Assembly: GCA_903864265.1 (NCBI GenBank)
Contig: CAIPFN010000243.1
Location: forward strand, 1 to 60,459
Direction: 5' to 3'
Source: an uncultured Bacteroidales bacterium
GTDB taxonomy: Bacteria > Bacteroidota > Bacteroidia > Bacteroidales > UBA4417
Length of the DNA stretch: 60,459 bases
The notes below the pieces were generated by a model. The model was given only the letters and a program-made list of their open reading frames with translations, did no database searches and was not told the DNA's origin. The first letter of the stretch is position 1. The number at the start of each line of letters is the position of its first letter. The position numbers were made by a program, and so were the translations under genes. This document shows, one piece after another, positions 27,380 through 28,678 of this stretch.

Positions 27380-27420
27380 ACGCAAAATGCGTTACGCAAA
27401 ATGCGTAACGCATTTTGCGT
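27380..27420. repeat. Array of three palindromic units ACGCA(AAA/TTT)TGCGT at 14-bp period (27380, 27394, 27408)
   Basis: ACGCAAAATGCGT-T-ACGCAAAATGCGT-A-ACGCATTTTGCGT read directly. Confidence 0.95.
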
Positions 27421-27446
27421 AATAATTGAAAAATGTCGTACCTTTG
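27414..27446 (+). promoter_or_regulatory. Putative Bacteroidetes promoter for the AAA ATPase (TTTG-N21-TACCTTTG)
   Basis: TTTG at 27414-27417 inside palindrome unit 3, TACCTTTG at 27439-27446. Confidence 0.65.
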
Positions 27447-27466
27447 TGGGGAAAACACAGCTTAGC

Positions 27467-28588
27467 ATGAAACCACAAAACCCTTTTCCGACCTTAGAAT
27501 ACATTTCACCTGTTTATTTTTGCGACCGGGAAGCTGAGCTGGTTCAGCTTATTGATTCCATTGATAATCAAAGAAATATAACAATTATATCCCCTCGAAG
27601 GTTGGGGAAAACCGCCCTGATCAGGCACTGTTTCCATCAGCTGAAAAACAGGAAAGACCTTTCGCTGCATTATTTTGATATTTATGCCACCCGGAATTTG
27701 CACGAGTTTATCAACCTGCTCTCCTCGTCCCTGATCGGTTATTTTGAATCGAAACCGGAAAAAATGCTCGCGCAACTTGTAAAAATGCTCGGTCAGTTCA
27801 GGCCCAAGCTCTCCTTCGACGAGCTCTCGGGGGCGCCGGCCGTGGAATTATCCCTGCAATCCGATTCGGAAAAAGAACAAAGCCTGGCAGCCATTTTCAA
27901 CTACCTTTCGAAACAAAAGCAAAGAGTGGTGATTGCCATCGACGAGTTTCAGCAAATCACCAATTACCCCGAACAAAATGTGGAGGCCCTGTTGCGGTCG
28001 CATATTCAGTCCAACCCGAATGTGACCATGATCTTTTCGGGCAGCAACCGCCGGATGCTGGTTTCGTTATTTAGCGAGTATGCCCGCCCGTTTTATCAAA
28101 GCAGCGGTTTCCTTTTTCTGGATAAAATCGATCCGGAACTTTATAAAGTATTTATTGCCAGTCATTTCAAAAAGGCGGGAAGGAAGATCGCGGAGGAAGC
28201 CCTGGGTTTTATACTGGACTGGGCGCAGGGGCATACGTACTTCGTTCAGGAAATATGCAACCGTTTGTACGCGTCTGGCCTGGCTGCAATCGGCATACCG
28301 GAGGTAAAGCAGGTCACCTTTCAGATCCTGGAGGAAAGGGCGCCTTTATACCATGTGTTCCAAAACATGCTCACCGCTTCACAATATGCCCTGTTAAAGG
28401 CCATTGCCCATGAAACAAGCATTGAAAAGCATACGGCCTCTTCCTTTCTGACCAGGCACAAGCTTGGTGCGGCCAGTACCGTGGCCCGCTCCCTGGAAGC
28501 CCTGGAAACCAAAGATTTGATCCTGTTCGAAAATAACAGCTACTCCCTTTCCGATATTTTTCTGATGCGATGGCTGCAAAGACAATAA
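27467..28588 (+). CDS. AAA+ ATPase (archaeal-type/MNS family) with C-terminal winged helix
   Basis: FCDREAELVQLIDSIDNQRNITIISPRRLGKTALIRHC (Walker A), RVVIAIDEFQQI (Walker B), MIFSGSNRRML, C-terminal HKLGAASTVARSLEALETKDLI...YSLSDIFLMRWL; start at ATG 27467. Confidence 0.88.
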   Translation: MKPQNPFPTLEYISPVYFCDREAELVQLIDSIDNQRNITIISPRRLGKTALIRHCFHQLKNRKDLSLHYFDIYATRNLHEFINLLSSSLIGYFESKPEKMLAQLVKMLGQFRPKLSFDELSGAPAVELSLQSDSEKEQSLAAIFNYLSKQKQRVVIAIDEFQQITNYPEQNVEALLRSHIQSNPNVTMIFSGSNRRMLVSLFSEYARPFYQSSGFLFLDKIDPELYKVFIASHFKKAGRKIAEEALGFILDWAQGHTYFVQEICNRLYASGLAAIGIPEVKQVTFQILEERAPLYHVFQNMLTASQYALLKAIAHETSIEKHTASSFLTRHKLGAASTVARSLEALETKDLILFENNSYSLSDIFLMRWLQRQ

Positions 28589-28609
28589 GAAACCGACATG
28601 CTGTTTTTT

Positions 28610-28636
28610 GCGCAAAATGCGTAACGCATTTTGCGC
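28610..28636. repeat. Second array of the same palindrome: two units GCGCAAAATGCGT-A-ACGCATTTTGCGC
   Basis: Read directly; 21 bp after the ATPase stop codon; same 14-bp period. Confidence 0.95.
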
Positions 28637-28670: not shown

Positions 28671-28678
28671 TACCTTTG
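28671..28678 (+). promoter_or_regulatory. Putative -7 element TACCTTTG upstream of hflX
   Basis: Matches TAnnTTTG about 19 nt before ATG 28697; the -33 element is weak. Confidence 0.5.

Follow-up and report, generated by a model that had tools for sequence, protein, structure and literature searches.

The window, by which we mean the whole 60,459-nucleotide stretch of DNA analysed (a contig of an uncultured Bacteroidales bacterium), carries a solitary AAA+ ATPase gene lying between two arrays of short palindromes. What are these arrays to the gene that they bracket? An initial annotation had offered two answers, operators bound by the winged helix of the ATPase itself or the termini of a small mobile cassette. 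The features of the locus are collected in Table 1. The palindromes were found as first described, with three units at a period of 14 bp upstream of the gene and two units beginning 21 bp past its stop codon. The 5' array consists of ACGCAAAATGCGT (27380–27392 and again 27394–27406) and ACGCATTTTGCGT (27408–27420), all perfect palindromes, and its inner two units form a perfect 31 bp palindrome at 27392–27422. The 3' array is made of GCGCAAAATGCGT (28610–28622) and ACGCATTTTGCGC (28624–28636) separated by a single A. The overlap of the upstream array with the promoter was also confirmed, the -33 box TTTG being located within the final palindrome. The exact pattern CGCAWWWTGCG occurred five times in the 60-kb window, and these five matches were the five array units. 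In the 3.6-Mb assembly (64% complete), the sole further ACGCAWWWTGCGT was one ACGCATATTGCGT, single and differently centred. The 3' array lies approximately 34 bp upstream of the TACCTTTG box of hflX (28671–28678), so that the ATPase could also affect hflX in the window. The situation differs in genome G003, where hflX is 4.5 kb away.

Table 1. Features of the ATPase locus (positions in the window).
Feature	Position	Strand	Basis
5' array, three 13-bp palindromes, half-site ACGCA, period 14	27380–27420		Sequence; equivalents upstream of ~90% of homologues
Bacteroidota-type promoter, TTTG (27414–27417), 21 bp, TACCTTTG (27439–27446)	27414–27446	+	Sequence
Solitary AAA+ ATPase, 373 aa, PF01637 (ATPase_2), stop 28586–28588	27467–28588	+	Homologue alignment, Pfam, AlphaFold2 (AF2), Foldseek
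Walker A, SPRRLGKT, residues 42–49	27590–27613	+	R45, G47, K48 invariant (n = 24 homologues)
Walker B, residues 155–160, ending D159 E160	27929–27946	+	D159 and E160 both invariant (homologue alignment)
C-terminal winged helix: helices 304–316, 325–330, 336–348; wing 352–361	28373–28585	+	AF2 model
Recognition helix, residues 336–348	28472–28510	+	AF2 model; S337, A340, R341 covary with half-site bases
3' array, two palindromes, perfect 27-bp dyad	28610–28636		Sequence; own-motif 3' arrays in 14/164 loci

Alignment to homologues placed the start of the coding sequence at 27467, and not at the in-frame upstream ATG (27401), which is itself inside the array. The protein scored 50.2 bits against PF01637 (ATPase_2, COG1672-type; gathering cut-off 33.2). 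The Walker A and B motifs and the C-terminal winged helix that characterise this family were recovered by alignment, AlphaFold2 modelling (pLDDT 89.5) and Foldseek, in agreement with the AAA+/wHTH architecture first read from the sequence. The best Foldseek matches were 2qen (PAB2304) and 2fna (SSO1545), followed by Orc2, Cdc6 and Orc1 folds, DNA-bound forms among them; the Orc1/Cdc6 folds 2qby and 1w5t were among the top matches, with TM 0.55–0.6. Scores for the curated Orc1/Cdc6 families were 15.1 bits against a cut-off of 311 (NF001623) and 12.1 against 181 (TIGR02928). The anti-phage model DS41 gave 21 bits for a cut-off of 370, and PDC-S01, which has no cut-off, a partial match of 29 bits. 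Judged by its sequence, the ATPase is not a recognised defence protein. ATPase domains alone were detected in the single ORF between the arrays, with no transposase or recombinase and no fused nuclease domain.

Homologous loci were taken from related genomes, from 80 loci of a species-level collection and from 395 genomes of the class, 74 of which possess the ATPase family. Arrays were detected with a score that takes in both the tandem period and the dyad symmetry; this replaced a comparison of inverted-repeat coverage with shuffled sequences, which was too blunt (33 of 104 loci at P ≤ 0.05). An array was present within 170 nt upstream of approximately 90% of 185 homologous ATPases from Bacteroidota and neighbouring phyla, and was undetectable upstream of the other 10% or so. 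The rate was 16% for the 182 nt that follow the gene, and 5% for the control DNA further upstream of the same loci. Of 17 loci taken from other lineages within the phylum, all showed an array (score ≥11.8). The period was 14 in 113 loci and 15 in 49, and the half-sites varied among loci (ACGCA, ACACA, ACGTA, TTACA, ATACA, TAACA and rarer ones). A TAnnTTTG box was found in 131 of 167 loci, and in 111 of these 131 the array was on the box or at most 30 bp away, the position expected of a repressor operator. Matches on a Bacteroides CACC 737 plasmid resembled assembly repeats and were discarded.

The window motif was searched with up to two mismatches in the 395 genomes. Five genomes had it, at five separate places in all, and at four of these places a family ATPase gene followed directly. 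A genome-wide scatter of these palindromes, unlinked to the ATPase, had been named as the outcome that would speak against a functional pairing, and it is not what was found. The fifth place (L274, G180:C21, position 48343) was a ACACATTTTGCGT double array with no family ATPase within 1.5 kb; its neighbours are genes for an OppC-like permease and a transporter. In another genus, represented by 40 genomes, the ACACA array was confined to the four genomes possessing an ATPase orthologue and was located at that gene, on both sides of it in three of the four. The arrays were not multicopy: each genome had at most two, nearly all at the ATPase gene or at its syntenic site. Co-occurrence of array and ATPase was observed on the 5' side of approximately 90% of the homologues, but on both sides in only about 9%. 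No motif was shared within 31 co-resident paralogue pairs, compared to 3.8% of random pairs, too few to call avoidance.

The bases of the half-site were compared with all 373 alignment columns in 106 loci of period 14. The top covarying columns were A340 for position 1, S337 for positions 2 and 3, and R341 for position 4. These three residues are at the beginning of the recognition helix, on one helix face. At position 2, S337 goes with C, A337 with T or A, and P337 with A; at position 1, L340 goes with T; at position 4, R or K341 goes with C, T, A or Q341 with T, and S, N or H341 with A. The window ATPase, with S337, A340 and R341, matches its half-site A-C-x-C-A as the rule expects. When changes were placed on a tree of the ATPase domain alone, those at position 4 and residue 341 shared a branch nine times (2.2 expected, P=3.6e-5), and those at position 2 and residue 337 seven times (2.0 expected, P=1.2e-3). 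The helix columns did not rank first in this test and several non-helix columns scored comparably, indicating that shared ancestry contributes to the covariation. Distances at the level of domains failed to separate the winged helix from the ATPase domain (partial rho 0.18 versus 0.21), and the winged-helix signal emerged only in the residue-level analysis within the period-14 clade. The rule, fixed beforehand, was then applied to a small held-out set, eight unused loci that belong to other lineages within the phylum. Position 4 was correctly predicted in seven of the eight, spanning C, T and A, compared to three of eight for a constant C; for positions 1 and 2 the prediction held in all eight, but these positions were invariant in that set. 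Both traits of an autoregulator, an operator in its own promoter and DNA-binding residues matched to this operator, were therefore present, the second being weaker once the tree is controlled for. The covariation and the held-out prediction make it very likely that the ATPase recognises its own array through the recognition helix. The proposal that the palindromes are operators for the ATPase's own winged helix gains support from the occurrence of the arrays and their promoter position as well.

The comparison of loci at different sites indicated a unit with a fixed 5' end. DNA homology between such loci began at the 5' array and ended at the stop codon or at the 3' array, with no base-precise empty site. 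In a Proteiniphilum pair the cassette was mostly 80–97% identical, whereas the flanks were unrelated. The reverse was seen at a locus shared by two viral contigs of IMG/VR (L329 and L331): flanks mostly 90–100% identical, array and ATPase approximately 60%, and different arrays. The two viral ATPases were strongly diverged (61% at the amino acid level), by exchange of the module or by very fast evolution. In genomes G271 (L278) and G244 (L279) the cassette lay between cas9 and cas1, two genes that overlap by ATGA in other genomes, and the orthologous ATPase of G121 was located elsewhere. These homology limits, pairs of loci and cas9–cas1 sites argue that the array travels with its ATPase and, as far as such comparisons go, that the two move together as one unit of approximately 1.2 kb. 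No target-site duplication was seen at the loci compared, and motif and protein searches returned one copy per genome.

An array of the gene's own motif was present behind 14 of 164 loci (~9%), as against 1.4 expected from the motifs of other loci, nearly always 4–25 bp past the stop codon. The other 91% lacked the 3' array, and were likewise at varied sites. In the genus of the window, trpS is followed in the syntenic order by the ATPase, two genes and hflX. Genome G003 has trpS followed by array, ATPase and array, and in G008, as in the window, the array–ATPase–array block is ahead of hflX. In each of three genomes without a close ATPase (G009, G015 and G011; loci L060, L077 and L079), the corresponding place near trpS/hflX holds exactly one array pair, a perfect one. 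Such lone array pairs were rare in the 16 genomes examined, with one more in G014. Their location at ATPase-less syntenic sites indicates, from gene order, that loss of the ATPase, or the state before its gain, leaves one array. In the three genomes the lone pairs have stayed perfect palindromes even though the adjacent intergenic DNA is unalignable, which suggests a recent loss of the ATPase or some retained use. Empty and filled sites of the genus could not be aligned base by base because the intergenic DNA was too diverged, and in g75 the empty sites ahead of gene X had no single array. In genome G013 (L059, 1–200), the 3' end of trpS was tandemly duplicated along with REP-like hairpins at the end of the contig.

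We propose that the locus is a self-contained unit, a single evolutionary cassette formed by a solitary Orc1/Cdc6-like AAA+ ATPase, which probably represses its own gene, together with a cognate operator array that co-evolves with it. On the sequence comparisons made here we hold this explanation to be highly probable. In this model, the recognition helix of the winged helix would bind the array with one protomer per half-site, so that an array of two to three palindromes would hold four to six protomers. As the -33/-7 promoter region is covered by the array, the bound ATPase would most likely repress its own gene, in a manner tuned by ATP. The co-evolution of array and helix would give each cassette its own address. 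The array and the gene are inherited and transferred jointly. In the genus of the window, and in a minority of others, the 3' side is closed by another array with the same motif. Autorepression alone does not account for the single arrays or the 3' array.

Alternatively, the arrays could mark where a small mobile element ends. The ATPase would bind both and pair them, and would assist a recombinase, of the host or borrowed, in excising, inserting or exchanging the 1.2-kb cassette, with loss leaving one array. The homology limits, the contrasts between cassette and flanks in the Proteiniphilum and viral pairs, the cas9–cas1 sites, the three lone array pairs and the excess of own-motif 3' arrays are what such an element would produce, but deletion between the 27-bp repeats combined with ordinary horizontal transfer would look alike. 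The lack of a transposase, of a target-site duplication and of intragenomic copies, together with a 3' array that is mostly missing, argues against an autonomous transposon, and the cassettes lacking a nuclease domain, the loci at varied sites without a 3' array, the unalignable flanks and the g75 sites fit poorly too. We therefore regard mobile-element ends as a rather doubtful explanation. The cassette-termini proposal in the initial annotation was partly supported, by the limit of homology at the array and the lone arrays at ATPase-less sites; bracketing by two arrays was seen in only about 9% of loci. Less likely again is a wider form of the idea, in which single-gene mobile cassettes without a transposase would make up a class found throughout the phylum. 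Their Orc-like ATPase would recognise arrays at the cassette ends, array address and helix would change together to yield new non-cross-reacting elements, and the arrays would delimit the unit exchanged, inserted or lost.

The nearest solved folds after 2qen and 2fna, and the fact that archaeal Orc genes often adjoin their own binding repeats, could point to a protein that, like Orc1/Cdc6, serves in initiation or segregation and acts at an origin- or centromere-like array. This is very improbable for a chromosomal gene of a family that is present in just 74 of 395 genomes, with several different cassettes per genome, scores far under the curated Orc cut-offs and no AT-rich unwinding element identified. 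Generic palindromes (REP/RAYT repeats, transcription terminators or sites of a global regulator) are likewise intergenic and can separate convergent or co-oriented genes, and RAYT-like genes are nearby in some genomes. Such an origin is barely credible for arrays that are few per genome and tied to the ATPase or its syntenic site, that change in sequence along with the ATPase helix, and whose 3' dyad in the window is not followed by a T-run on either strand.

The autoregulated cassette that we favour can be compared with several known systems. The archaeal-type ATPases of PF01637/COG1672 (PAB2304, SSO1545) share the Pfam family, the fold and the AAA+ plus C-terminal winged helix organisation with the window protein, which has no fused nuclease domain. 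To our knowledge, cognate operator arrays, a recognition code or cassette behaviour as described here are not known for them; no array or code for the family was found in the open-access papers searched, and a report elsewhere is possible. Orc1/Cdc6 initiators are alike in domain organisation, in fold and in having repeats near their own gene, whereas the present family is far under their sequence cut-offs, chromosomal and variable, with several cassettes per genome and no evidence of an origin. Phage- and toxin–antitoxin-type autorepressors also combine a DNA-binding protein with tandem palindromes in its own promoter, binding being predicted here. The candidate binder of the present arrays is, in contrast, an AAA+ ATPase encoded on its own, in which the Walker motifs are conserved; its specificity diversifies phylum-wide, and some loci have a second array past the gene. 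REP/RAYT and single-gene insertion elements similarly consist of one gene bracketed by palindromic DNA, but here there is neither a Y1 nor another transposase and the arrays are not multicopy.

A common AAA+ family with solved structures, for which we found no assigned function, thus gains a candidate DNA target and a three-residue recognition rule. The code makes function testable by prediction, since a residue swap predicts an operator, and it could annotate the operators of many family genes from the protein sequence alone. The loci also constitute a natural set of candidate repressor–operator pairs with different specificities. If the arrays defined a mobile unit as well, this would point to a mode of transfer without a transposase.

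The commonest recurrent neighbour of the ATPase was cas1 (6 of approximately 94 loci). In several species, type II-C CRISPR loci had a family cassette between their cas9 and cas1 genes (L278, L279, L284 of G296, and L102). In other genomes, RhuM-like genes occupied the cas9/cas1 junction, or RAYT-like genes were present between cas1 and cas2. In genome G002 (L006/L050), the ATPase orthologue had a triple 5' array, and the gene after it was for a RAYT-like Y1 transposase and had hairpins of its own.
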